DNA from: Pseudomonas guangdongensis
GTDB taxonomy: Bacteria; Pseudomonadota; Gammaproteobacteria; Pseudomonadales; Pseudomonadaceae
NCBI RefSeq assembly: GCF_900105885.1
Contig: NZ_LT629780.1
Span: 1,674,001 to 1,738,000 of the forward strand
Length of the DNA: 64,000 nucleotides
Direction: 5' to 3'
Positions 17,702 through 32,306 of this stretch are shown here, one piece after another (position 1 is the first letter of the stretch; every line of letters starts with the position of its first letter). The notes under the pieces were generated by a model that saw nothing but the letters and a program-made list of their open reading frames with translations, had not been told where the DNA came from and searched no databases. A program made the translations under genes and the position numbers.

Positions 17702-17781
17702 GCCGTTCTGCTGATTGCCGGAACACAAGAAACCCCGCCGAGGTTATGCGTAGTCTCTGACCACTCATAATCTTGACCAGA

Positions 17782-17815
17782 ATGCCGTATCCCACCTCGG
17801 GGTATGGCATTTTTT
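17782..17815 (+). terminator. intrinsic terminator after the 17132-17701 gene
   Basis: ATGCCGTATCCC pairs with GGGGTATGGCAT (12 bp, two G-U pairs) around a 5-base loop and runs directly into TTTTTT. It ends the core segment; accessory sequence begins just beyond. Confidence 0.8.
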
Positions 17816-17825
17816 GCATCTGACC

Positions 17826-18055
17826 AAGATTAGGTGGTTGCTGGCAGACAAGGGCTACGATGCCGAGCACTTGCGCCAGTACTGCGACCGTTACCGGATG
17901 CCGCCTGTGATTCCGCTGCGAGCCATAAAACGCAAGCCCAAGCCGGGATGACCAAGGCTGTTCGACCGCCCGAAATACCGGCAGCGCGACATCATCGAGC
18001 GGATGTTCGGCTAGCTGAAGGAGATCCGCCGAATTAATCGCCCCGAATCCCCACT
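17826..18055 (+). pseudogene. IS5-family transposase fragment with two nonsense mutations
   Basis: One reading frame gives the C-terminal third of an IS5/IS427-type DDE transposase: WLLADKGYDAEHLR..., then FDRPKYRQRDIIERMFG and LKEIRRINRP. The ERMFG(W)LKEIRRI stretch carries the catalytic Glu of the DDE triad. The frame is interrupted by TGA at 17949 (where CGA, Arg, is expected) and TAG at 18012 (where TGG, Trp, is expected). Both are single transitions. The N-terminal two thirds are missing. It is dead and marks the edge of the island. Confidence 0.8.
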
Positions 18056-18098
18056 AAGTGCGGAAAGTGACTTGGCTAAACGCTTACGCCAAGGAGGT

Positions 18099-19271
18099 TC
18101 AGAAAGAGTAAGCCAGCTGTGTCCAAATGCGGGGTTGGCGCTCTATGTCGTTCTGCGCCGGATGGTCGCCGACTTTCCAGCCTGCCAGCGCGCTGAGGTT
18201 CCAGGTGCGATCCGACCATCCCGCCCCAAAGCCTGACGCGGAGAGACGACGGGGCGAGGTGTCGGTGGTCCAGCTAGGTGTATTGAGGCGCGCGACGCCG
18301 TGATCGGCGAATGCGACCAGTCGCCAGGTAGTGGTCAGGGCGTAGCGCAGTTCGACGCTGGCTAGCCAGCCCTTGTCGCCGAATGCTGCGGTCTGATGCA
18401 TGGCGCGCGCACCGAACACACCGCCGACATAGAGTTTTTCCGAGTCGTCCAGATTGTCATCGCTCCACTGGCCCTGGGCGCGAACGTACAGGGCCAGGCG
18501 CCCTCCCAGTTGCTGCAGGCGCGCAAGGTCGGCGCGCAGCACACTGAAACGGCCCGCATCGGCCTTGCCCACTAGCGAATAGGGCGAGCCATCGATATTC
18601 AGGCTGCCCTCGCTCCAGCGCAGTGAAAGGCTAGTCTCGGCTCCGTTCAGCAAGTCGTCTCGGACAGTGCCGGAGAGGCCGTAGCTGAGCACGCGGGATC
18701 GTTTTTCACTGTGTACGCCGAGCAGTCCAATTTCATCCTGCAGGCGTTTGTCGTCGAACTGCAGCCGGGCTTTGAGGTTGAACACCTCGTATTGAAGGAG
18801 CGGTTGGATGATGAATGCACTGGCAGTGCGGGTCTTGCCCTTGGCGGCAAGTATTTCGAGCTCATCGCCCAGCTCGTAGGACAGGTCCGAGAGGATAACG
18901 CCCAGTCGGCTCGACCAGGGGCCGACGTCCAGATGATAGGCAGCCCAGTGGTAATGACCTTCCTCGGCCGAGCCCATGCTGCGCAGACTCAGCAGGTCGT
19001 TCTGGTCAAGCAGGCCATGCAGGTTGATGGCGCTAGAGAATCGGGCTTGGTCGTCATGGCCGCCGAAGTTGTCCACTGCCAGGCCACCACTGATGAACGG
19101 CATCGCACTCAGATCATCGGGCGGATCATAGGTGGTGTTGCCCAGCGTCAGGCTGCTGCGCGATGGCAGGTCGGGGATTTCCTGAAAGGGCAGCAACTGC
19201 GCCGCTGCGTTGGCTAGGCAGGAACCTGCAAGTGCAGACAATGCGAACAACAGGCGACAAGCCAATCGCAT
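18099..19271 (-). CDS. POTRA-less TpsB-like outer-membrane beta-barrel protein
   Basis: 390 residues: a signal peptide (MRLACRLLFALSALAGSCLA, cut near NAAA) followed after about 35 residues by a complete TpsB-type beta-barrel. It aligns end to end with the barrel half of the neighbouring TpsB. Shared blocks include LQFDDKRL, GSLNIDG, QGQW and DNLD(D)SEK, the loop-6 region (VGGVFGARAM here, LGGAYGVRAY there), ELRYAL and DHG. It ends in Phe like an outer-membrane barrel. No POTRA sequence exists between signal and barrel, and the open frame shows no decay. POTRA domains bind the secreted partner in known TpsB proteins, so this one cannot work in the standard way. It may be a helper pore, an adhesin retention site, or a remnant. 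It lies 234 bp downstream of tpsB. Start: AGG lies 10 bp before the ATG at 19271; an ATG at 19280 is also possible. Confidence 0.8.
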   Translation of the reverse strand: MRLACRLLFALSALAGSCLANAAAQLLPFQEIPDLPSRSSLTLGNTTYDPPDDLSAMPFISGGLAVDNFGGHDDQARFSSAINLHGLLDQNDLLSLRSMGSAEEGHYHWAAYHLDVGPWSSRLGVILSDLSYELGDELEILAAKGKTRTASAFIIQPLLQYEVFNLKARLQFDDKRLQDEIGLLGVHSEKRSRVLSYGLSGTVRDDLLNGAETSLSLRWSEGSLNIDGSPYSLVGKADAGRFSVLRADLARLQQLGGRLALYVRAQGQWSDDNLDDSEKLYVGGVFGARAMHQTAAFGDKGWLASVELRYALTTTWRLVAFADHGVARLNTPSWTTDTSPRRLSASGFGAGWSDRTWNLSALAGWKVGDHPAQNDIERQPRIWTQLAYSF

Positions 19272-19442
19272 ACAAGGCATACCTGGGTAATCGTCGGGAC
19301 AGGCTCGGGGTATACGAGCGCACAGTGGCGAGGCAGGGTATGGTTTCAGGTTCTTGCTTTGCAAGCCAAACGGGCCGATACCTGGCGCAGGCCATTGTCG
19401 GATGGACAGCGCTCTTCTTGTCCACCATTGCGAGCGTGCAGT

Positions 19443-19468
19443 GGTGGACGGGTAAAGTGCCGTCCACC
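19443..19468. other. perfect 9-bp hairpin between tpsB and the second barrel gene
   Basis: GGTGGACGG pairs with CCGTCCACC around GTAAAGTG. No T-run follows on either strand. It lies in the 234-bp gap and could attenuate or protect the tpsB transcript; otherwise this gap shows no gene. Confidence 0.4.
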
Positions 19469-19505
19469 CTGCAGGAAGCCGCCCCGAATGCGGGTCAACC
19501 GATGC

Positions 19506-21158
19506 TTAGAAAAACCGTACCATCTGCGCCCACACCCTTGGGCTACGCTCGACGTCGCTTTGCGCGTCGTCATTACCTAGCTTCCAGGCGGCTACAGTGT
19601 TGATCTGCCAGCCGTATGCGGCCCACCGGGCGCCGACGCCGGTACCCGACAGGCTGCGGTGGTTCTCGCCACTGCTCCAGGTGTCCTTGTTTAGCCGTAC
19701 CTGCCCATGGTCGATGAAGGTGCTCAGCTGCCAGGCATCGCTCAGCGCGTAGCGAAGTTCGAGGTTGGCCAGCCAGCCCTGGTCGCCGGATGCCTCACCC
19801 TGGGGGTAGGCGCGCACACCATAGGCACCGCCGAGGCTGATTTTCTCCGAGCTATCCAGGTTGCCGTCGGCCCACTGGCCCTGCAGTTGGCCGTACAGGC
19901 TGAAACGCTCGCTCAGGCGCTGCAGGCGCACCAGGCTCGGGTTGAGCTTATGGAAGCGGCCCTGGGTGCCCGCAGTCAGATCGTCGATGGCCTGGTTGAG
20001 TTCGCCATCGATGTTCAGGCTACCCTGACTCCAGGACAGGGCGAAGCTGTTCACGCCACCGCCGAACAGGTCGTCGCGGCTGTTGCCGGTGAGGCTGGCG
20101 ATGACCATGCGCGAGCGCTTGTCGCTCTTGCTGTCGAACAGGTCGATGTCATCCTTCAGGCGCTTGTCATCGAACTGCAATTGCGCATACAGGGAAAAGT
20201 CCCGACTGCGTACCAGCGGCTGGATCGTATAGAGACTGGCGATACGCGCATTGCCGTGCGCCTTGAGATCGTCGAAATCCTTTTCCAGCTGGTAATCCAT
20301 GTCCGAATAGGCAACCCCTACCTGGGTGGCCCAGTTGCCGATTGGCAACTGGTAGCCAATGCGGCCGTACTGCTGGTCTTCGTCCGAAGCCATGGCACGC
20401 AGTGACAGGCGATCCCCCAGCCCCAGCGGACTATTGACGTTGAGCGTGCCGCCCAGCCGGTATTCGCCGGTGAAGCGGTTGCCGTAGTTGTCGGCATCCA
20501 CCGAGCCGGATAGCAAGGGGCCGGGCTGCACGTCCACCAACAGGTCGGTGGCACCGACCGAGGCGCCTGGTTTGAGGGTGGACTTCACCTCTACCCCAGG
20601 CGTGTCGGCGAGCAGCAATAGGCTGCGTTCCAGCGCTGCGGAGCGCACGGCATCACCAGGCTTGAGAGCGGCAAGCGGCGCCAGGGCTGCGCCCGACACC
20701 CGCGACTGATTGTTCAGACCGACTTCGCCGTAGCGACCTTCCATTACGGCGATCTGCACCACACCGCCATCGATTTCCTGGGCCGGAATATAGGCCCGGG
20801 CCAGGGGATAGCCGCGTTCGCGATACAGGCGAGTGATGCGATTGGCGCCGGCCTGCAGTTCGCCGAGAGAAACCGTGCGGCCTTGCAGGTCGGCTAGCAG
20901 GGGCAGCAGCTCTTCGCTGGCGAGGGCGCTGTTGCCCTGCAGGGTAAAACTGTTGATCGCCAGGCTTGGCCCGCTCTTGTTCATCTCGGTCGAGGGCGCA
21001 TCGGGCAGGTTCAGCTCCAGCCGCTGCTTGCCGGGCAGTTGCAGCGGGCGTTGATCAATCACCTGCTGCGACTGTCCAGCATCCGGCAAGATAGTCGCCA
21101 TCACAGGCAGCGACAGCAGTGATACGGCACCGCCGAGCAATGTGTGAGCGAAACGCAT
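19506..21158 (-). CDS. two-partner secretion transporter TpsB (ShlB/FhaC/HecB family)
   Basis: 550-residue outer-membrane protein that secretes the adjacent TpsA. Signal peptide 1-21 (ends LPVMA). The segment to about 65 corresponds to the plug/linker. POTRA 1 spans about 66-142 (FTLQGNSALASEELLPLL, then LYRERGYPLARAYIP) and POTRA 2 about 145-212. A 16-strand barrel begins near 216 and ends in RFF. The loop-6 tip motif, usually VRGY/F, is VRAYP here, keeping the essential Arg. The ATG lies 3 bp after the tpsA stop, so the two genes are coupled in the order tpsA-tpsB. Length is typical of the family. Confidence 0.93.
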   Translation of the reverse strand: MRFAHTLLGGAVSLLSLPVMATILPDAGQSQQVIDQRPLQLPGKQRLELNLPDAPSTEMNKSGPSLAINSFTLQGNSALASEELLPLLADLQGRTVSLGELQAGANRITRLYRERGYPLARAYIPAQEIDGGVVQIAVMEGRYGEVGLNNQSRVSGAALAPLAALKPGDAVRSAALERSLLLLADTPGVEVKSTLKPGASVGATDLLVDVQPGPLLSGSVDADNYGNRFTGEYRLGGTLNVNSPLGLGDRLSLRAMASDEDQQYGRIGYQLPIGNWATQVGVAYSDMDYQLEKDFDDLKAHGNARIASLYTIQPLVRSRDFSLYAQLQFDDKRLKDDIDLFDSKSDKRSRMVIASLTGNSRDDLFGGGVNSFALSWSQGSLNIDGELNQAIDDLTAGTQGRFHKLNPSLVRLQRLSERFSLYGQLQGQWADGNLDSSEKISLGGAYGVRAYPQGEASGDQGWLANLELRYALSDAWQLSTFIDHGQVRLNKDTWSSGENHRSLSGTGVGARWAAYGWQINTVAAWKLGNDDAQSDVERSPRVWAQMVRFF

Positions 21159-21161
21159 AGA

Positions 21162-24100
21162 TCAGAGTCCTTCTGGCATGAGGATGGTGTGCAGGTTCAG
21201 TTCCTCATCGCGTTGGTCGTTAGTCAGGGCTTCAAAATCTTGTGCCTGCTGGCTGGTCTTGCTTGAAACGGCTTGGCTGTTCGAGGCCAGTACGCTGATA
21301 TAGGACGTATTTCTGTCGCCTAAGGGCTGTTCGGCCATCGGCGCAGTAGCAACTTGAAGCGTTCCATCCACATAGTGGATGTCATAGTTGGCTAGGGACG
21401 CGCCGAGCGCGTTACTAGCGACAATGGCGTAGTTGCCGACAGCAGCTGTTGCAGGTTTCCCGACACTACTGAGAGTAACCGAAGCAACACTATCGCTACC
21501 AACCAGCCCCCTGACGCTGTAACCGCTCAGATCGATGCTTTGACCAAAGGTCTTACTGGCGTCCAAGGCTGCGATGGTAAGGGCAGCCTTGCCGATAGTT
21601 AGGCTGCCGGCGGTATAGCTTAGGTTGTAGTTGTCGGCAGTCAGGCCGCTAGCGCTCAGGCCATAGATGCCTGCATTAACCGCCCCTTGGGCGGTGCCAC
21701 TGTAGCTGAGCGTGCCGCCGAGTACCGACTCCGTTTCGCCGTTGACAAAACCGCTGAAGCTTACTTCCTTGCTGGCACTGAAGGCCCTGCCATCGTAGGT
21801 TTTGCTGGCGTTATTGACCGTGACGTTCAGGCTGGCCCGCTGGATCGAGGCCGTCAGCCCGGCGGGCTGGACGAGCAGGTAGTTGCCGGCGTCGGCGCCG
21901 CTCAGGGTGTAGCCGCTGACGCTCACCGCCTTGCCGGTGCCGGCGTTCTTGTCGGCGAAGGCGCCGATGCCGGTGCCGCCGAGCGTGACCACATCGCTGC
22001 CGAAGGCGCTGACGCTGGCGGTGCCGTTCAGGGTCGCGACCGTGGTGCCGTCGTAGGTCTTGTCGCTGGCGGTGATGCCGTTGACGTTCAGGCTGGCCCG
22101 CTGGATCGAGGCCGTCAGCCCGGCGGGCTGGACGAGCAGGTAGTTGCCGGCGTCGGCGCCGCTCAGGGTGTAGCCGCTGACGTTCACCGCCTTGCCGGTG
22201 CCGGCGTTCTTGTCGGCGAAGGCGCCGATGCCGGTGCCGCCGATCGTGACCACATCACTGCCGAAGGCGCTGACGCTGGCGGTGCCGTTCAGGGTCGCGA
22301 CCGTGGTGCCGTCGTAGGTCTTGTCGCTGGCGGTGATGCCGTTGACGTTCAGGCTGGCCCGCTGGATCGAGGCCGTCAGCCCGGCGGGCTGGACGAGCAG
22401 GTAGTTGCCGGCGTCGGCGCCGCTCAGGGTGTAGCCGCTGACGCTCACCGCCTTGCCGGTGCCGGCGTTCTTGTCGGCGAAGGCGCCGATGCCGGTGCCG
22501 CCGAGCGTGACCACATCGCTGCCGAAGGCGCTGACGCTGGCGGTGCCGTTCAGGGTCGCGACCGTGGTGCCGTCGTAGGTCTTGTCGCTGGCGGTGATGC
22601 CGTTGACGTTCAGGCTGGCCCGCTGGATCGAGGCCGTCAGCCCGGCGGGCTGGACGAGCAGGTAGTTGCCGGCGTCGGCGCCGCTCAGGGTGTAGCCGCT
22701 GACGCTCACCGCCTTGCCGGTGCCGGCGTTCTTGTCGGCGAAGGCGCCGATGCCGGTGCCGCCGATCGTGACCACATCACTGCCGAAGGCGCTGACGCTG
22801 GCGGTGCCGTTCAGGGTCGCGACCGTGGTGCCGTCGTAGGTCTTGTCGCTGGCGGTGATGCCGTTGACGTTCAGGCTGGCCCGCTGGATCGAGGCCGTCA
22901 GCCCGGCGGGCTGGACGAGCAGGTAGTTGCCGGCGTCGGCGCCGCTCAGGGTGTAGCCGCTGACGCTCACCGCCTTGCCGGTGCCGGCGTTCTTGTCGGC
23001 GAAGGCGCCGATGCCGGTGCCGCCGATCGTGACCACATCACTGCCGAAGGCGCTGACGCTGGCGGTGCCGTTCAGGGTCGCGACCGTGGTGCCGTCGTAG
23101 GTCTTGTCGCTGGCGGTGATGCCGTTGACGTTCAGGCTGGCCCGCTGGATCGAGGCCGTCAGCCCGGCGGGCTGGACGAGCAGGTAGTTGCCGGCGTCGG
23201 CGCCGCTCAGGGTGTAGCCGCTGACGCTCACCGCCTTGCCGGTGCCGGCGTTCTTGTCGGCGAAGGCGCCGATGCCGGTGCCGCCGAGCGTGACCACATC
23301 GCTGCCGAAGGCGCTGACGCTGGCGGTGCCGTTCAGGGTCGCGACCGTGGTGCCGTCGTAGGTCTTGTTGCTGGCGGTGATGCCGTTGACGTTCAGGCTG
23401 GCCCGCTGGATCGAGGCCGTCAGCCCGGCGGGCTGGACGAGCAGGTAGTTGCCGGCGTCGGCGCCGCTCAGGGTGTAGCCGCTGACGCTCACCGCCTTGC
23501 CGGTGCCGGCGTTCTTGTCGGCGAAGGCGCCGATGCCGGTGCCGCCGAGCGTGACCACATCGCTGCCGAAGGCGCTGACGCTGGCGGTGCCGTTCAGGGT
23601 CGCGACCGTGGTGCCGTCGTAGGTCTTGTTGCTGGCGGTGATGCCGTTGACGTTCAGGCTGGCCCGCTGGATCGAGGCCGTCAGCCCGGCGGGCTGGACG
23701 AGCAGGTAGTTGCCGGCGTCGGCGCCGCTCAGGGTGTAGCCGCTGACGCTCACCGCCTTGCCGGTGCCGGCGTTCTTGTCGGCGAAGGCGCCGATGCCGG
23801 TGCCGCCGAGCGTGACCACATCGCTGCCGAAGGCGCTGACGCTGGCGGTGCCGTTCAGGGTCGCGACCGTGGTGCCGTCGTAGGTCTTGTTGCTGGCGGT
23901 GATGCCGTTGACGTTCAGGTTGGCCCGCTGGATGGTCAGACTGGCATTTGTGTTCGCGTAGCTGATGTCATAGCCCTGTTGGCCGGAATACAAGCCGCCC
24001 AAGAGCAGTGTGCCGTTGGCTTGGCTGTAGTCGCCCGCGTTTTTGCTGTGGGTGACATAGGTCAGGCTGCCATCCAATGTCGCGCCGGAGAGGCTGGTGG

Positions 24101-27100
24101 TGTAGCTAGTCGTGCCGCTGGCGACGTTGCCGTCGTAGGTTTTGCCGGTGATGCCGCCCGCACTCGCCGAGACGGTGACCTGCTGCAGGAAGCTACGCAG
24201 CAGCGGGCCTGTGTAGCCTTCGTAGATACGCCAGACGGCGTTCGTACCGCCTGTACCGGCAATGTTCCAGCCTGCGAAGGTACGCGCCTGGGTGAGCTCT
24301 TCCCGGGTCTTGCCGGCGCCGATACCGTTCCCCGCGAATGCACCGGTTGCCGCACCGCCATTGTTGATGCTGCTGCCTTGCGCATCGGTGGTTGCGTAGA
24401 AGCTGGCGGTGATCTGGCCAAAGCCGAAGTCGTTGCCGACCAGCCCGCCGACGTTACTCGTGCCCGAAACGCTGCCCGTAGCATAGGTATTGCTGATGCT
24501 GTCGCCTTCGTGGTGCCCAACCAGCCCGCCGACATCATTGTTGGTGCCGGAGACGCTGCCGGTGGCATAGGCGTTGCTTATGCTTTCGCCGCGGTTGTAC
24601 CCAACCAGCCCGCCGACGCGGCTGGTGCCAGAAACGCTGCCGGTGGCATAGGCGTTGCTGATGATGCCGCCGTAGTTATTCCCGACCAGCCCGCCGACGC
24701 TCACTCCGCTGCCGTACAGCCCATCGAATACACCCGACACGCTACCCGTGGCATAGGCGTTGCTGATAGTGACGCGCGCGCTGGAGCCAACCAGCCCGCC
24801 GACGTTGCTGCTGCCCGCAACGTTGCCCGTGACATAGGCGTCGTCGATAAAGCCTTCGGAGTGATACCCAACCAACCCGCCGACGTCGCTGCCACCCTCA
24901 ACATTGCCGGTGACATAGGCGTTGTAGATGCTGCCGTTAACGTTGCGCCCAACCAACCCGCCGACCCCGTCCCCGTCCCCAAACACGCTGCCGGCGGCAT
25001 ACACGTTGCGAAGAGTGCTGGACTCGTTTGTTCCCACCAGCCCGCCGACGGCGCCCGCGCCTGAGACACTGCCGGTGGCATAGGCGTTGCTGATGCTGCC
25101 CTCGGCGTTGGCCCCAACCAGCCCGCCGACGGAGTTCGCGCCTGAGACACTGGTGGTGGCATAGGCGTTGCTGATGCTGCCGCGTTCGTTGAGCCCCACC
25201 AGCGCGCCGACATTGTCGGCGCCCGAGACGCTGCCGCCCACCAGCCCGATATTGCGGATCACGCTGCCGTTACCAGTCTTGCCAAACAGGCCCACAGCAT
25301 TCGTGCCGCCACGGTTGATGGTCAGACCGCTGATGGTGTGATCCAGCCCGTCGAACGTGCCGGCGAAGAGGTCGGCGCCATAACCAATCGGCTGCCAGCC
25401 CGCGCCGGCGTTGGCCGTGGCGCTGGCTGTGCTGTGATAGCCCACGCTGTTCTGATCCAGGTCGACCGTCAGCACGAAGTGCTTGCCCGCGGTGTCACCA
25501 AGGATGTGGTTGATGTTCTGCAACTGCTGCCAGCTGGCCAGTACCCAGGGGTTGTCCGCCGTGCCGGCGCCGGCGTCGAAATACTGGTAGCCCGTCTTGG
25601 GCGTTACGCCTTGCAGCGTGGGTAGGCGGTGGAAGACGTAGCCGCCCGTGTCGGTGGGCATGCGCCAGGTGCTGCCAAAATCCCAGCCGGAGAAGGTGCT
25701 CGCCTGCTGCAGCTGTGCGGTTGTTCTGCCCAGGCCAGCTGCGCTGCTGGCCTGGCCGGTGGTTTGGGTGTCCCAATAGGCGTTGCTGACGCCGCTATAG
25801 ATGCTGTCCTTGAGCCCGACCAGCCCGCCGACAGAGCTCGTGCCTGAGACACTGCCGGTGGCATAGGCGTTCGTGATGAAGGTGTTGGTGCTGCCGCTGA
25901 GATGCCCGACCAGCCCGCCAACCTTGTCGTTGCCCGAAACGCTGCCGGTGGCATAGGCGTTGCTGATTCTGCCAGAGGAGGCGTTGTTCCCAACCAGCCC
26001 GCCGACATTGTTGTTGCCCGAAACGCTGGCGCTGGCATAGGCGTTACTGATAGAGACGCGGGAGAGGCCGACCAGCCCGCCGACGTGGTCGCCGGTGCCC
26101 GTGACGCTGCCGGTGGCATAGGCGTTGCTGATGGAGGCCATGCCGTCCCCGACCAGCCCGCCGACGGAGCTTTTGCCCGAGACGCTGGCGTTGGCATAGG
26201 CGTTTTTGATGGTGCTGTAGTTCATCCCAAGCAACCCGCCGACGTTGTCGCCGGTGCCCGAGACGCTGCCGGTGACGTAGACGTGGCTGATGGTGCCGTT
26301 CCCTCGGTATCCGGCCAGCCCGCCGACGTAACTTTTGCCCGAGACGCTGACGCCCACCAGCCCGACATCGCGGATCCGGCCGGCGTCGGCCCGGCCAAAC
26401 AGCCCCACATAGTCCTGATCGCCACGGTTGATGGTCAGATTGCTGAGGGTATGACCTAGGCCGTCGAATATTCCGGTGAAACTGCGGAGATTGTTGTTTT
26501 CATCCCTACTGCCATCCCCCACCGGCTGCCAGTTGGCGATGCCGCTCAGATCGATATCGCTACCCACGGCATAGTTGCCGGCCAGATCGTTCCGCATGGC
26601 TTGCAGCGCAGCGGCATCGTTGACCACGGTGTAGGTGACGACGCCACCATAGATGCTGCCGTCCAGGCCCTTTTTGGTGCTGAAGTTCTGCCCGCTTTGC
26701 AGGTTGACGGGAGCGTTGATGAAGTAGTCCGCGCTGATGAAGCCATGTTCATCGCCGTCGCGCTGGCCGTAGTACAGCGCCAGTTTGCCGTTTGCGTGCT
26801 CGGCGGTGATGCTGGCGTTAATGTGGATGTCGTTGTGGGCGCTCAGGGTGAGGGTGGTGTCCTGGTTCCAGATCAGCGCGGCGTTGACGTGGATATCGCC
26901 CTGGTCTTCGCCGGCGGCCACCGTCTGCAGGGTGACGCTGGTGCTATTGAGGTTATTGCTGAGGGTGTCGGCGCCGATGCCACTGTCGCTCAGAGGCGCC
27001 TTGCCCGCGCTGACGGTGAAGTCGGTGGGATCGATCAGCCATTCACCGGTCTTGCCGTTCGCCGCTTTGGTGGTGACCTTGGCGCTCTCCGCCACTTTGA

Positions 27101-28070
27101 CGTGGGCACCGCTGGTCTCGATAAAACCGCCGTCGCCGCCATCGGGCGCGCTGGCATCCAGGGTGCCGGCCACCTCTATGGTGCCTCCGTCGAAGTCGCC
27201 GAGCAGGACGATCTTGCCGTCCTTTTCACCGAGGGTGCGGGCTTCGATCACGCCGGTGTTGTTGACCACCGTCTTGAGCAGCGCCTCGCCGGCATTGGCG
27301 GTCAGCAGCACCTGGCCGCCGTCGGCGCGGATCAACTGGCGGTTTTCCACCAGGGCATCGACCTGTGCCTCATCGACCTGCACGTTGAGCAGGCCATCGC
27401 CGGCAAAATCCAGGGTCATCGCGTTGCCCGCGGCCAGGGCTACCGTGCCCTGGTTGGCGACGATCACGCCGTTGTTGCTGACGGTACCGCCGAGCAGGGC
27501 GACGCTGCCGCCGTCGGCTGCAGTGATCTGGCCGTTGTTGATGACGCTGGCATTGCTGCCATCGCCCTTGAACCGGTAGTTACCCGCTTCGAAGTCGCTG
27601 TTGCTGATGTCCAGCGTGGAGGCTACCAGGCCGCCGACATTGACCTGCGCGCCTTGGCCGAACAGCACGCCGTTGGGGTTGACGATAAAGACCCGGCCAT
27701 TGGCATCGAGCTGGCCCATGATCTTCGAACCGTCGGCACCAAGCACGCGGTTGAGGGCAATGGCATCGCTGCCCGGCTGGTTGAAGGTGACCTTGTTGCC
27801 GGCAGCAATATCGAAGCTTTGCCAGTCGATGGCGAGCTTGTTGCTGGACTGGTCGATGACCATCTGGTTGGCGCTGGGCGTACCTATTTGTCCCTGGCCG
27901 GACACCACCTGGCCCCCCGTTGGCAGGTCGGCTGCGCACGCCACAGCTGGCAGCAGAAGGGCCGTCGCAAGGACAGCGCCCGCTCCTTTGCCACGTCGGC
28001 GAGCATGCTCATCGGTAACGCTCCAGGCGCTGAGGCTTGGGTTCCAGACGAGGGCATAGGTGCGGTTCAT
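21162..28070 (-). CDS. filamentous-haemagglutinin-like TPS adhesin (TpsA) with GLUG and YDG/MBG repeats
   Basis: 2302-residue secreted surface protein. Domains in order: extended signal peptide (ESPR type, MNRTYALVWNPSLSAWSV, cut near ACA-AD at 46-47); TPS domain to about 300 with NPNG at 131-134; beta-helical stalk; two arrays of GLUG-type repeats (VGGLVG...ISNAYATGSVSG) at about 535-760 and 910-1225; one divergent YDG/MBG unit; eight near-identical 87-residue YDG units at 1385-2080; two more divergent YDG-like units; a 60-residue tail. An RGD triplet sits at 549-551. The tail has no Cys, so a C-terminal cysteine hook as described for HMW1 or CdrA is absent. AGGGA precedes the ATG. By architecture it resembles large biofilm or host adhesins such as CdrA; ligand unknown. 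Confidence 0.93.
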   Translation of the reverse strand: MNRTYALVWNPSLSAWSVTDEHARRRGKGAGAVLATALLLPAVACAADLPTGGQVVSGQGQIGTPSANQMVIDQSSNKLAIDWQSFDIAAGNKVTFNQPGSDAIALNRVLGADGSKIMGQLDANGRVFIVNPNGVLFGQGAQVNVGGLVASTLDISNSDFEAGNYRFKGDGSNASVINNGQITAADGGSVALLGGTVSNNGVIVANQGTVALAAGNAMTLDFAGDGLLNVQVDEAQVDALVENRQLIRADGGQVLLTANAGEALLKTVVNNTGVIEARTLGEKDGKIVLLGDFDGGTIEVAGTLDASAPDGGDGGFIETSGAHVKVAESAKVTTKAANGKTGEWLIDPTDFTVSAGKAPLSDSGIGADTLSNNLNSTSVTLQTVAAGEDQGDIHVNAALIWNQDTTLTLSAHNDIHINASITAEHANGKLALYYGQRDGDEHGFISADYFINAPVNLQSGQNFSTKKGLDGSIYGGVVTYTVVNDAAALQAMRNDLAGNYAVGSDIDLSGIANWQPVGDGSRDENNNLRSFTGIFDGLGHTLSNLTINRGDQDYVGLFGRADAGRIRDVGLVGVSVSGKSYVGGLAGYRGNGTISHVYVTGSVSGTGDNVGGLLGMNYSTIKNAYANASVSGKSSVGGLVGDGMASISNAYATGSVTGTGDHVGGLVGLSRVSISNAYASASVSGNNNVGGLVGNNASSGRISNAYATGSVSGNDKVGGLVGHLSGSTNTFITNAYATGSVSGTSSVGGLVGLKDSIYSGVSNAYWDTQTTGQASSAAGLGRTTAQLQQASTFSGWDFGSTWRMPTDTGGYVFHRLPTLQGVTPKTGYQYFDAGAGTADNPWVLASWQQLQNINHILGDTAGKHFVLTVDLDQNSVGYHSTASATANAGAGWQPIGYGADLFAGTFDGLDHTISGLTINRGGTNAVGLFGKTGNGSVIRNIGLVGGSVSGADNVGALVGLNERGSISNAYATTSVSGANSVGGLVGANAEGSISNAYATGSVSGAGAVGGLVGTNESSTLRNVYAAGSVFGDGDGVGGLVGRNVNGSIYNAYVTGNVEGGSDVGGLVGYHSEGFIDDAYVTGNVAGSSNVGGLVGSSARVTISNAYATGSVSGVFDGLYGSGVSVGGLVGNNYGGIISNAYATGSVSGTSRVGGLVGYNRGESISNAYATGSVSGTNNDVGGLVGHHEGDSISNTYATGSVSGTSNVGGLVGNDFGFGQITASFYATTDAQGSSINNGGAATGAFAGNGIGAGKTREELTQARTFAGWNIAGTGGTNAVWRIYEGYTGPLLRSFLQQVTVSASAGGITGKTYDGNVASGTTSYTTSLSGATLDGSLTYVTHSKNAGDYSQANGTLLLGGLYSGQQGYDISYANTNASLTIQRANLNVNGITASNKTYDGTTVATLNGTASVSAFGSDVVTLGGTGIGAFADKNAGTGKAVSVSGYTLSGADAGNYLLVQPAGLTASIQRASLNVNGITASNKTYDGTTVATLNGTASVSAFGSDVVTLGGTGIGAFADKNAGTGKAVSVSGYTLSGADAGNYLLVQPAGLTASIQRASLNVNGITASNKTYDGTTVATLNGTASVSAFGSDVVTLGGTGIGAFADKNAGTGKAVSVSGYTLSGADAGNYLLVQPAGLTASIQRASLNVNGITASDKTYDGTTVATLNGTASVSAFGSDVVTIGGTGIGAFADKNAGTGKAVSVSGYTLSGADAGNYLLVQPAGLTASIQRASLNVNGITASDKTYDGTTVATLNGTASVSAFGSDVVTIGGTGIGAFADKNAGTGKAVSVSGYTLSGADAGNYLLVQPAGLTASIQRASLNVNGITASDKTYDGTTVATLNGTASVSAFGSDVVTLGGTGIGAFADKNAGTGKAVSVSGYTLSGADAGNYLLVQPAGLTASIQRASLNVNGITASDKTYDGTTVATLNGTASVSAFGSDVVTIGGTGIGAFADKNAGTGKAVNVSGYTLSGADAGNYLLVQPAGLTASIQRASLNVNGITASDKTYDGTTVATLNGTASVSAFGSDVVTLGGTGIGAFADKNAGTGKAVSVSGYTLSGADAGNYLLVQPAGLTASIQRASLNVTVNNASKTYDGRAFSASKEVSFSGFVNGETESVLGGTLSYSGTAQGAVNAGIYGLSASGLTADNYNLSYTAGSLTIGKAALTIAALDASKTFGQSIDLSGYSVRGLVGSDSVASVTLSSVGKPATAAVGNYAIVASNALGASLANYDIHYVDGTLQVATAPMAEQPLGDRNTSYISVLASNSQAVSSKTSQQAQDFEALTNDQRDEELNLHTILMPEGL
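21831..23918 (-). repeat. eight tandem 261-bp YDG-domain repeats inside tpsA
   Basis: Exactly eight 261-bp units (87 codons each), differing at only a handful of positions. Three units nearest the N-terminus carry Asn (AAC) in ASNKTYDG, the other five Asp (GAC). A Leu/Ile difference (CTC/ATC) in VVTLGG/VVTIGG is always paired with a silent AGC/AGT change upstream. One unit has Asn for Ser in AVNVSG. The near identity points to recent expansion or homogenisation by recombination. Confidence 0.95.
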
Positions 28071-28311: not shown

Positions 28312-29693
28312 GATCGTGTCCCAACGAGTGGTGTAACTGAGATCCGCCAGAAGCGCCGTCAGGCGTGAGAAAGGATGGTCACCGTGGTTTCCGGCTAGGT
28401 TGAGTTTGCCGACCTAACCATCACCGGAGAAACCACGATGACCAAGCACACTATCGCACTGGACGAACTCGCCGAGAAAGGTCCGGATGCCGACCTGCTC
28501 AGGCACATGATCCAGTTCGTCGCTCAGCGCCTGATGGAGCTCGATGTCGAGACACGCTGCGGTGCCGGCTACGGCGTCAAGAGCGAGGATCGCAGCAACA
28601 GCCGCAATGGTTACCGGGATCGCCTGTGGCAGACCCGTGCCGGCGACGTCGAACTACGCATTCCCAAGCTGCGCCAGGGCAGCTATTTCCCACCCTTCCT
28701 GGAGCCCCGGCGTACGGCCGAGAAGGCCCTGGCCGCGGTGATCCAGGAGGCCTACGTGCAAGGCGTCTCGACCCGCTCGGTCGACGAACTGGTACAGGCC
28801 ATGGGCATGAGCGGAATCTCGAAAAGTCAGGTGTCACGCCTGGCCTGCGAGATCGACGAGCGCGTCCATGCCTTCCTGGACCGCCCCATCGAGGGAGACT
28901 GGCCCTACCTATGGGTTGATGCCACCTACGTCAAGGTGCGCGAGGCCGGGCGCATCGTCTCGGTCGCGGTGACAATCGCTGTGGCCGTGAACACCGATGG
29001 CGTGCGCGAGGTACTGGGCATGCGGGTCGGGCCTTCGGAAGCCGAGCCGTTCTGGACCGACTTCCTGCGCAGCCTGATGCGTCGTGGCCTGCGCGGGGTG
29101 AAACTGGTCATCTCCGATGCCCACGAAGGGCTCAAGGCGGCGGTGGCCAAGGTTCTGAAAGCAACCTGGCAGCGCTGCCGGGTGCACTTCATACGCAACG
29201 CCCTGGCGCATGTCGGCAAAGGCCAGCGCACCATGGTAGCCGCGCTACTGCGCACGGTGTTCGCCCAGGATTGCGAGGATGAGGCCCGTCGACAGTGGCG
29301 TGCTGTGGCTGATCAGCTGCGCGAGCGATTCCCGAAGATTGCCAAGCTGATGGATGGCTGCGAAGACGAGGTGCTGGCTCACATGGGCTTCCCCAAGGCG
29401 CACCGGCAGCAGATCCACAGCACCAACCCGTTGGAGCGCCTGAACGCCGAGATCAAGCGCCGTACCGACGTGGTAGGCATCTTCCCCAACGACGCTGCCA
29501 TCATCCGCTTGGTCGGAGCGATGCTGCTGGAGCAGAACGACGAATGGAGCCTGCAACGCCGCTACATGCAGCTTGAGGGACTGCAATCGCTCAGTGACAA
29601 TCAACCCGCTCGGCTATCCGCTGTGATCAGCTGAGCCCCCGCAGACTCGACTGCCAGAGACATGGCAGTTACACCACTTCCCGGGACACGATC
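28312..29693 (+). mobile_element. complete IS256-family insertion sequence, 1382 bp
   Basis: The ends are 28-bp imperfect inverted repeats (24 of 28 identical) that begin GATCGTGTCCC and finish AGTGGTGTAACTG, differing only in the four bases between. They are bounded by identical 8-bp direct repeats, and the element contains one intact transposase gene filling most of its length. Uninterrupted ends, duplication and reading frame show a recent, probably still competent insertion. It sits in the divergent space between tpsA and the response-regulator gene, 234 bp from the tpsA start and 112 bp from the regulator start. Confidence 0.93.
28438..29634 (+). CDS. IS256-family (mutator-type) transposase
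   Basis: 398-residue DDE transposase of the Transposase_mut family. Likely catalytic residues are D161 in [10 protein letters not shown]227 in ISDAHEG and E333 in [15 protein letters not shown], with the family C/H segment [13 protein letters not shown] before the insertion domain. Length is normal and no frameshift is present, so the enzyme looks active. It lies wholly inside the inverted repeats. Confidence 0.94.
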
Positions 29694-29805: not shown

Positions 29806-30495
29806 ATGTTGACTGCCAGCCATACCTCCGATAATGCTCTGCTACCTGCACCGGTACTGGTGGTTGAGGACGACCCGCTGATGCGTCAGCGGCTAGCGCG
29901 GGTACTCGGTGAAATCGGTTACGCACAGGAGGCGGTGAGTTTTTCGGTAAACCTGGCCGAGGCGCGCGCGCATGTTAGCCAGCAACCGGTGGCGATGGTG
30001 CTGGTGGACCTGGGGTTGCCGGACGGCAATGGCATCGAATTGATCCAGGAGTTGCGCACGCAGGACCCAGCGCTGTGGATCCTGGTGATTTCAGCCTGGA
30101 GCACCGAAGATGCAATCCTTGGTGCGTTGAGGGCCGGCGCCACGGGCTACCTGCTCAAGGAGCGCGACGACCTGGAAGTCAGCCTGTCGATTCGTAGCGT
30201 GTTGCGCGGCGGTGCGCCAATCGACCCGTTTATCGCGCGGCGCATTCTGGCCTTGCTGCCGACGGTGCCGTTGCAAACGCCCAGCGACACAAGCGACATC
30301 GAAGCACTCAGTGCCCGCGAGAGCGAGATTCTCGAATGGGTTTCCCGCGGCTTGAGCAACCGGGAAATCGCCGAACAGTTGGCCATTTCCCGCTATACCG
30401 TCGAATGCCATATCAAACGGATTTACCGCAAGCTAGCCGTCTCTTCACGTACTCGCGCGCTAAGCGAGGCTCGGCAGCGCGGCTTATTGCCCTGA
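29806..30495 (+). CDS. NarL/LuxR-type response regulator
   Basis: 229-residue two-component regulator. The receiver domain (about 16-135) has acidic E21-D22-D23 and the phospho-acceptor D68 in VLVDLGLPDGNG, with conserved Thr/Ser and Lys positions (LVISAWS, LLKERDD). The C-terminal LuxR helix-turn-helix (about 165-229) reads LSARESEILEWVSRGLSNRE and then IAEQLAISRYTVECHIKRIY. It overlaps the sensor kinase gene by 91 bp, so the two form a system. Divergence from tpsA and candidate operators in between suggest it controls the adhesin (inference). The start region lacks a strong ribosome-binding site. A 12-bp palindrome AATGCCGGCATT lies 48 bp upstream. Confidence 0.9.
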   Translation: MLTASHTSDNALLPAPVLVVEDDPLMRQRLARVLGEIGYAQEAVSFSVNLAEARAHVSQQPVAMVLVDLGLPDGNGIELIQELRTQDPALWILVISAWSTEDAILGALRAGATGYLLKERDDLEVSLSIRSVLRGGAPIDPFIARRILALLPTVPLQTPSDTSDIEALSARESEILEWVSRGLSNREIAEQLAISRYTVECHIKRIYRKLAVSSRTRALSEARQRGLLP

Positions 30496-32306
30496 CCCTG
30501 CTGCTGCTCCTGTTACCTTGGTTTCCGAGTCCCGCACAGGCGAACTGCCAGGCGACCATTACCCGCGTAATGGTGGCTCCCGAGCGGGGCGGCGATGGTG
30601 TACGCCCGCTCGCAGGCTGGCAGACAGTAACCCTTCCGGATCTGTGGCAGCGCCACTGGCCCGGCTTTCTGGGGCCGGTGTGGTATCGGCTGGACTGGCA
30701 AGCCGACTGTGCTGGTGAGCCGCTGGCGCTGAACATCGATCGCATGGTTATGGCGGGCGAGGTGTGGCTCAACGACGATCTGATCTGGCGTGACGCGAGC
30801 CTGGCCGAGCCGTTGTCGCGCAGCTGGAATCTGCCACGCTACTGGCTGCTGCCGTTATCCCGGCAGCAGGAGGCCAATACTCTGTGGGTTCGCCTGGTGG
30901 GCTCGGAGCATGCCGCGCCGGGTCTGGGCACGGTGCGCCTGGGTGTATCCGCGCAGGTCTGGCCGGAGTACCGTCAGCAGCTATTGCAGCAGCGTGAGCT
31001 CATTTTCGTCAGCCTGCTGATTTCCCTGGTGTTGGGTGTGCTGTTTCTGACGTTCTGGCTGTCCCGCCGCCAGGAACGTGCCTTCGGTTGGTTCGCGCTG
31101 GCTTCGGTGCTGTGGTCGGTTGGCCTTGGCAATATGCTGGTGACCACAGCCTGGCCATTCACCAACGGTGAGGTTTGGGATCGCCTAAGCCTGCTGGCAT
31201 TGGCGCTCTATTGTCCAGCGTTCTGCATGTTCATTTGGTCGCTCGGCGGTATGCGCTTTGCGCGCCTGGAAAGGGCTATCTGGGCTGGCGTGATCCCGTT
31301 CTGCGTGGCCGTAGTGCTGGTGCCGAAGGCGCAGATTGGGCTGCTGCAGATAATGTCCGCCTTTTCGCTCAGGCTGGTCTTGTTTGTTCTCGCCATGCAG
31401 CTCATTTGGCATACGTACCGCAGGCGACAACCCCGTCTGATGGTATTCGGGGCGCTTATGGCGGCGTTGTCGATCTATGAGTTTCTGGCCTTCATTGGCG
31501 TGCTTGATGTTGCAGGGGTGTATGCCGCGCTGTCGGCCCCCGTCTTGTCCTCGGTGATGTTTCTGGTCCTGGCCATGCGTTTCACCAACAGCCTGCAGCG
31601 CATCGAGTCCTTCAACGATGAGCTGCAGGCAAGCGTGGAAAGCACACGGGCGGAACTGACCCAGACGCTGCAGCGCGAGCACCAGCTGGAAGCCGAAAAT
31701 ATTCGCCTTAATGAACGCCTGCGCCTGACTCATGATCTGCATGACGGCCTGGGTAGTTCGCTGATGCGTTCGATTATCCGCATGGAGCATGGCGAGGGGC
31801 TGAAAGATGATCAGTTTCTGTCCGTGCTGAAGACGTTGCGTAGTGACCTGCGTGACGTCATCGACGGCTCGTGCGCGGTGCCCGCCTGGCAATCGCCGCA
31901 GGAGTGGCTGGCGCCGCTGCGGCGGCGGTTCATCGACCTGTTCGACGATCTGGGTATCGAGTCGCAGTGGAGTCTGCCGGAGCACTGGCCGGGGGCTTTC
32001 ACGCCGCCGCAGCTGTTGGCCCTGACGCGATTTCTCGAAGAGGCGCTAACCAATGTGCTAAAGCATGCGGGCGCCACACGGCTGGACGTGGGGGTGCGTG
32101 CCGAGGGGGAGAATGGCCTGAGCATATGGGTATGTGACGATGGTCGGGGATTCGAGGTGGATGCCGTACTTGCAGCGGGCACCGGAGTCGGCATGAGCAG
32201 CATGCGCGTGCGTATCGAGCGCATGGGCGGGCAACTGCGGGTCGAGTCCCGCCCTGGTGAAACGCTGCTGACGGCTACCATTCAGGGTGAGCCACCATGC
32301 GATTAA
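30405..32306 (+). CDS. membrane sensor histidine kinase (7TM sensor, HisKA_3)
   Basis: 633 residues from the only usable start, the ATG at 30405 inside the regulator gene. A hydrophobic signal segment (LIALTLLLLLLPWFPSP) is followed by a periplasmic beta domain (to about 195, with the paired YRLDW and VWLNDDLIW strands of 7TMR-DISM extracellular domains). Seven membrane helices occupy about 205-410 and a short coiled coil about 410-440. The dimerisation/phospho-acceptor helix contains HDLHDGLGSS (H446 probable acceptor), and the ATPase has EALTNVLKHAGA and DDGRGFE. It should phosphorylate the NarL-type partner. The ligand is unknown; this sensor fold often detects carbohydrates or membrane-linked signals. 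Confidence 0.88.
   Translation: MPYQTDLPQASRLFTYSRAKRGSAARLIALTLLLLLLPWFPSPAQANCQATITRVMVAPERGGDGVRPLAGWQTVTLPDLWQRHWPGFLGPVWYRLDWQADCAGEPLALNIDRMVMAGEVWLNDDLIWRDASLAEPLSRSWNLPRYWLLPLSRQQEANTLWVRLVGSEHAAPGLGTVRLGVSAQVWPEYRQQLLQQRELIFVSLLISLVLGVLFLTFWLSRRQERAFGWFALASVLWSVGLGNMLVTTAWPFTNGEVWDRLSLLALALYCPAFCMFIWSLGGMRFARLERAIWAGVIPFCVAVVLVPKAQIGLLQIMSAFSLRLVLFVLAMQLIWHTYRRRQPRLMVFGALMAALSIYEFLAFIGVLDVAGVYAALSAPVLSSVMFLVLAMRFTNSLQRIESFNDELQASVESTRAELTQTLQREHQLEAENIRLNERLRLTHDLHDGLGSSLMRSIIRMEHGEGLKDDQFLSVLKTLRSDLRDVIDGSCAVPAWQSPQEWLAPLRRRFIDLFDDLGIESQWSLPEHWPGAFTPPQLLALTRFLEEALTNVLKHAGATRLDVGVRAEGENGLSIWVCDDGRGFEVDAVLAAGTGVGMSSMRVRIERMGGQLRVESRPGETLLTATIQGEPPCD

Follow-up and report, generated by a model that had tools for sequence, protein, structure and literature searches.

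POTRA-less TpsB-like barrels are a genuine protein family under purifying selection, and one member is encoded in the window, the whole stretch of 64,000 nucleotides of Pseudomonas guangdongensis DNA that was analysed. POTRA domains are regarded as the cargo-catching part that accompanies every TpsB barrel. The protein described here is predicted to stand alone in the outer membrane as a barrel or channel that loop 6 closes at rest, to be expressed from its own promoter and to be inherited together with an adhesin module, a reading that we favour tentatively, at slightly under even chances. An independent function is probable, because selection keeps the barrel in several Pseudomonas relatives, sometimes without a secretion partner. 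Among the three roles proposed in an earlier note on this DNA (adhesin receptor or retention pore, hetero-oligomeric partner of the full TpsB, or channel on its own), the predicted channel fits best. The gene, its parts and its upstream element are located as follows.

18099..19271, minus strand: POTRA-less TpsB-like barrel gene, 390 aa, assigned from the open frame, Pfam ShlB without POTRA, and clade membership
19200..19271, minus strand: signal peptide, residues 1-24, assigned from the sequence and the alignment of relatives, a low-confidence part of the model with the cleavage site placed by eye
19095..19199, minus strand: POTRA2 stump (alpha2-beta2-beta3), residues 25-59, aligned with the POTRA2 end of full TpsB, with no regular structure predicted by AlphaFold2
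18102..19094, minus strand: 16-strand barrel with loop 6, residues 60-390
18405..18407, minus strand: codon of R289, the loop-6 lid-lock Arg, from the motif table and the lid lock as described in the available part of PMC4490367
18303..18305, minus strand: codon of D323, the FxDxG Asp that pairs with the lid-lock Arg, from the motif table
19337..19365, minus strand: promoter-like element CTTGC-N14-ARRCCATAYC, exact match, 65 bases before the barrel gene

The frame runs uninterrupted from the ATG at 19271 to the stop at 18099, giving 390 residues; this start is common to most relatives, and another in-frame ATG three codons upstream is possible. Pfam ShlB covers residues 60-351, scoring 43.5 bits against a cut-off of 22.7; Pfam lists no POTRA family at E <= 1, and the Omp85 family, at 20.1 bits, stays below its cut-off of 24. 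In a single BLASTP comparison with the barrel end of the neighbouring TpsB, 42% identity was found over 383 residues (E 3e-99), which excludes chance likeness. The 390-residue frame with a signal peptide and a full, POTRA-free TpsB barrel, as the earlier note had it, therefore stands. The short linker that it placed in front of the barrel needs a correction: the approximately 35 residues separating the signal peptide from the barrel are not unrelated sequence but the POTRA2 stump, in which LLPFQEIPDLPSRSSLTLGN (about residues 26-55) pairs with LLLLADTPGVEVKSTLKPGA in POTRA2 of the full TpsB. The labels alpha2-beta2-beta3 on this aligned end follow the general POTRA fold. Compared with the full TpsB, the protein lacks the plug helix and linker, all of POTRA1, and POTRA2 except for its last third; tblastn of the POTRA region of the window TpsB against the fetched loci found no POTRA remains in the tpsB-barrel spacer. 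Downstream of the gene lies a short frame (17754-17951, plus strand), which we take to resemble a transposase fragment.

With the TpsB transporters (FhaC, CdiB and ShlB; type Vb) the protein shares the 16-strand Omp85/TpsB barrel, judged from the ShlB match, the model and the structural matches, and also the lid lock between the loop-6 (V/I)RG(Y/F) Arg and the (F/G)xDxG Asp. In TpsB this lock is described as the loop-6 Arg paired with the FxDxG Asp (PMC4490367, in its available part). The window barrel retains the pair as R289 in loop 6 (VFGARAM, the motif being ARAM and not VRGY) and D323 in strand 13 (FADHG), and it ends in F390, so that both the Arg and the C-terminal Phe pointed out earlier are present. 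In contrast to the transporters, which carry two periplasmic POTRA domains and an N-terminal plug helix H1 with a linker, the window barrel keeps only the last third of POTRA2, lacks H1 and its linker, and belongs to a group that may occur without a nearby tpsA. From the POTRA function that is established in the available parts of PMC4490367 and PMC9355242, standard transport is ruled out, in support of the earlier view that this is not a standard transporter.

The structure prediction suggested earlier, made for the barrel alone with AlphaFold2, gave 16 strands at a mean pLDDT of 83.2 and a pTM of 0.83, with CdiB and FhaC as the closest structural matches. Confidence is low at residues 1-24, and the tail is modelled poorly (pLDDT block means 61-82, falling below 50 at residues 40-42, where the structural alignments start), no helix being predicted between residue 11 and the barrel. 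VIA-align starts at model residue 39-40 against chain residues 7-9 of 6wil, 6wim and 3njt, which we take to be the end of the plug helix; the model thus gives a weak hint that the N-terminal tail may sit in the lumen. Among solved structures the POTRA-less profile A2 found no match at E <= 0.001, and the mixed profile A3 matches CdiB 6wim at 6e-12. Thirty positions separate the POTRA-less clade, ten in loops, eight facing inward, six outward, four at the N-terminus and two in turns (faces assigned by a crude hydrophobicity parity), and four of the thirty fall in the nine-residue loop 1. A clustering of clade-specific residues on one face of the barrel was not clear, the 30 positions being scattered.

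The 67 database hits comprise 36 near-full-length POTRA-less relatives, four fragments or chimeras of these, three TpsB fragments and 24 proteins with POTRA_2. The length is 389-391 aa in 24 of the 36 near-full-length relatives and 356-435 aa in the other 12, partly through start choice; these many relatives of 389-391 aa rule out a merely local deletion. Of the 36, 21 are tree rows, and the remainder were assigned by identity and absence of POTRA. Searching with a profile brought in P0069-P0072 among 106 hits; both database searches scored the best 7999 candidates by word sharing. P0050, P0054, P0057 and P0073 have no POTRA Pfam match but begin inside TpsB, and were treated as TpsB fragments outside the clade. 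In a tree of 72 rows, built on the columns of the barrel alone, a single branch with an SH-aLRT of 100 sets the 35 POTRA-less rows apart from the rest, and with ten long full-length rows dropped (62 rows) the same branch receives UFBoot/SH-aLRT values of 100/100; the tree is unrooted and its rows are TpsB barrels only. The clade lies next to that class of TpsB whose genes often adjoin the barrel gene. The persistence of the POTRA2 stump suggests that POTRA was lost rather than gained. Orthologues all full length with POTRA, the case against itself that the earlier note had named, were not what the search returned, since a POTRA-less clade exists. Among 37 plasmid records that match, every one is below 60% identity, and a plasmid-borne family was rejected. 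Two irregular records were also seen: P0038, from a metagenome contig of 1161 bases, in which a TpsA-type extended signal peptide (PF13018) runs into the middle of a POTRA-less barrel through either a deletion or an assembly chimera, and G128:C1:1777607-1778724, a TpsB relative over two overlapping frames, suggesting a frameshift.

Purifying selection on the barrel is evident from dN/dS values (NG86) of 0.151-0.320 over 28 pairs of eight near-clade genes, far from 1, and the proposal that selection rather than decay keeps the frame open is borne out. Full TpsB of the same class gave 0.076-0.169 (28 pairs, eight genes), so that the barrel value is about twice as high. The pair from Irchel and huaxiensis gave 0.172, Irchel having no nearby tps gene, and the pair from G246 and G392 gave 0.254 with dS saturated. 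The median pN/pS is 0.50 in the tail and 0.37 in the barrel, so that the tail changes more quickly. The FxDxG Asp is present in all 35 clade rows and the loop-6 Arg in 31, with Asn in the other four (P0070, P0071, P0072 and G392). The G392-type barrels (L049 10952-12148), where Asn replaces the Arg in GALGVNAY, are sampled in one genome, in which no TPS domain was found.

Intact barrels were found in ten genomes of the same family, five of 398 in the family draw and seven of 398 in the genus draw, two being in both; at most the best four candidates per genome were scored. The ten are G000 (window), G069 (P. lopnurensis), G179 (P. cuatrocienegasensis), G246, G392, G428, G518 (P. huaxiensis), G521, G543 and G671 (Pseudomonas sp. 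Irchel 3E13), among which G521 is 88% and G392 99% complete. In the seven further genomes searched from the genus of the window itself, no match to the barrel reached E <= 0.001. The neighbours of the barrel gene in the window are as follows.

19506..21158, minus strand: full-length TpsB, 550 aa, POTRA_2 and ShlB (frame, Pfam)
21162..28070, minus strand: TpsA adhesin, 2302 aa, with ESPR, TPS domain, GLUG, YDG and MBG_2 repeats (frame, Pfam)
29806..30495, plus strand: LuxR-type response regulator, divergent from tpsA
30405..32306, plus strand: histidine kinase with HATPase_c and a weak 7TMR-DISM match (28.9 bits, cut-off 29), near tps or barrel genes in many relatives

A search for a POTRA-less barrel beside tpsAB elsewhere, as proposed earlier, was thus successful in other genomes: the barrel lies directly behind a same-class tpsB in five of the ten, with spacers of 234 (G000), 235 (G069), 454 (G179), 240 (G543) and 226 bases (G521). 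The window has a cognate tpsA close by, for which the adjacent full TpsB is the obvious transporter, and three genomes have a barrel without a nearby tpsA. In G518 the module is split, the tpsA start and the kinase pair lying at one contig end and the barrel on another contig. G428 carries an intact barrel behind a scar made of the first 13 tpsA codons and the last 90 tpsB residues, and at its other locus tpsAB is followed by a broken barrel remnant. This reciprocal loss in G428 lies at L073 9373-10967 and L076 8712-10778. No tps genes were found in the flanks (about 8-11 kb per side) of the barrel in G671 Irchel 3E13 (L018/L074), G246 (L048) and G392 (L049), and no same-class tpsAB was found in these three genomes, though their barrels are intact. 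G246 and Irchel 3E13 carry TPS systems of other classes; in G392 neither a TPS domain nor a ShlB match besides the barrel was found. Conversely, G144 and G361 have a same-class tpsAB and no barrel was found there. Barrel remnants are present in G014 (next to ilvD) and G020, which hold no more than that, and in G428-C11. The TpsA C-terminal tail, tried as a barrel ligand, was rejected, being the same with or without a barrel in the ten tpsA-tpsB junctions compared, G144 and G361 included.

The promoter-like element was found 36-70 bases ahead of the barrel in seven of eight near-clade loci, Irchel included and G428 excepted, once per locus; the pattern was drawn from the loci where it was then found, so that the finding is one of conservation and not of presence. 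Of the 106 loci compared, 25 contain it, all from those seven genomes, and no exact match was found at tpsA starts among the 106, several of which hold such starts. The window contains a single match at up to two mismatches, and shuffles average 0.61 at the same tolerance. By its position the element is promoter-like and may serve as the promoter of the barrel gene. Against an own promoter, a sigma-70 consensus scan of 17900-19700 called no site, the element included.

The regulator pair is present in nine of the ten barrel genomes. The kinase was detected in nine of 398 family genomes, namely the five for which the family draw gave an intact barrel, together with G011, G144, G169 and G221, a co-occurrence with a Fisher p of 1.6e-9 when kinship is ignored and the 398 genomes searched for the kinase are taken to be those of the family draw. 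Among the five further barrel genomes, four have the kinase at 75% identity or more, and G671 Irchel 3E13 has a 39% relative with an internal stop. The pair is divergent from a tpsA also in G543, G144, G069, G179, G521 and G518; it stands ahead of the tpsA/tpsB scar in G428 and ahead of the barrel in G392 and, with one frame between, in G246. That frame (L048 9387-9887, plus strand) has 166 residues and no Pfam match. Kinase and barrel occupy one stretch in five of the ten genomes (G000, G543, G428, G246 and G392) and different contigs in G069, G179, G521 and G518, in the first three of which the kinase is beside another tpsA. The 20 kb fetched around the kinase of G011, G169 and G221 gave no tps or barrel sequence. 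In the window a Mutator-family (IS256-type) transposase gene (28438-29634, plus strand) lies between tpsA and the response regulator and may, in this genome, cut the regulators off from the promoter that they target.

Under the stand-alone reading, the POTRA-less barrel would have arisen once from a TpsB of the neighbouring class, by a loss reaching from the plug helix through POTRA1 to two thirds of the way into POTRA2, which would have brought the signal peptide directly before the POTRA2 stump. The protein would be exported and then inserted in the outer membrane, where capture of a TPS domain would be impossible with the POTRA recognition surface gone. At rest loop 6 would shut the barrel, perhaps together with the N-terminal tail lying in the lumen. 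The gene would have a promoter of its own and would be inherited, perhaps also co-regulated, with the adhesin module, in which the regulator pair faces tpsA-tpsB-barrel, and the barrel would not depend on TpsA secretion. This reading is favoured because barrels occur without tpsAB, tpsAB occurs without a barrel, and the barrel has a promoter-like element of its own; the intact barrel behind the scar in G428 and the regulator pair beside the barrel without tpsAB in G246 and G392 support it further, as do the single well-supported clade, the purifying selection and the weak hint of a tail in the lumen. Against it stand the five barrels directly behind a same-class tpsB and the same-class tpsA sequence held by G428 and G518, which fit a TPS-linked role, as well as the lid-lock Arg, which 31 of 35 rows retain and which is lost in the branch where the single sampled genome yielded no TPS domain. 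The doubled dN/dS relative to full TpsB and the poorly modelled, faster evolving tail also speak against it.

These same observations bear on a possible though rather doubtful alternative, in which the barrel is a third TPS partner that aids TpsB or TpsA, for instance by joining a hetero-oligomer, by offering a docking site at the surface or by acting as a gate, and is dispensable in some species. The five barrels directly behind a same-class tpsB, at spacers of 226-454 bases, agree with such a partner, as do the conserved lid-lock Arg, the Asn in the G392-type branch and the four separating positions in loop 1, and G428 has a single intact tpsAB and a single intact barrel, at separate loci that have each lost the other part. 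However, G392 holds an intact barrel and gave no TPS domain, and Irchel 3E13 and G246 hold one and gave no same-class tpsAB; G144 and G361 have the tpsAB with the same TpsA tail and no barrel was found in either; and, loop 1 aside, the separating positions are scattered among loops, lumen, outer face, N-terminus and turns. With three intact barrels lacking a same-class tpsAB, one genome lacking any detected TPS domain, and two genomes having tpsAB alone, the role of obligate adhesin receptor or hetero-oligomeric partner, put forward in the earlier note, does not hold as a general one.

It is decidedly unlikely that the barrel or its periplasmic tail acts as an outer-membrane input that signals surface contact, or the presence of a ligand, to the histidine kinase, and that the kinase in turn controls the divergent adhesin genes. 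The joint occurrence of kinase and barrel in the family draw and in four of the five further barrel genomes points in this direction, and so does the regulator-kinase-barrel linkage that G246 and G392 keep without tpsAB while their outer flanks differ. Such linkage may merely reflect descent from one module, however, and only half of the barrel genomes hold both genes on one stretch; the four kinase genomes G011, G144, G169 and G221 gave no barrel, Irchel 3E13 has a barrel with only the interrupted distant kinase, and the tail is less conserved than the barrel. That the gene is a decaying TpsB duplicate, open by accident, is very improbable: the doubled dN/dS and the remnants in G014, G020 and G428-C11 would agree with decay, but 36 of the 67 hits are near-full-length relatives, the POTRA-less rows of the tree form one clade, near-clade dN/dS reaches at most 0.32, and the FxDxG Asp is invariant.

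Barrels without POTRA have been described in other branches of the superfamily. Heinz and Lithgow (2014) list POTRA-free 'noNterm' proteins with Omp85-type barrels (PMC4104836, available part); like the window gene these are barrels without an N-terminal extension, but the window barrel is TpsB-type, with ShlB above and Omp85 below the cut-off and 42% identity to TpsB. The plant proteins OEP80tr and Toc75-IV are barrel-only paralogues of a POTRA protein, a Toc75-IV mutant being viable with an etioplast phenotype, and the same source, as far as its available text goes, calls POTRA-less Omp85 unique to chloroplasts (PMC4195282). They are barrel-only like the window gene, but belong to the chloroplast outer envelope and to another Omp85 branch. 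Borrelia BBJ25 is an Omp85-family barrel for which, in the available part of PMC13078400, no POTRA domain was found and export of a non-polar ligand is proposed; it is POTRA-free like the window barrel, but BamA/TamA-like and located on a spirochaete plasmid. Among the open-licence literature matches listed, judged by title and the start of the abstract, there was no report of a POTRA-less TpsB.

A barrel selected in nature without POTRA, kin to a normal TpsB and in many cases its neighbour, makes the role of the barrel itself testable, that is, whether it conducts, plugs itself, dimerises or holds an adhesin. To the two-gene TPS pathway it adds one more gene, along with a two-component system associated with it. 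An unlikely extension is that sensor kinase, response regulator and POTRA-less barrel constitute a minimal TpsA-free unit, in which a secretion pore has turned into a signalling or transport channel in the outer membrane; if this were true, the loss of the lid-lock Arg in the G392 branch, where TPS genes would be gone, would mark release from the translocation mechanism.
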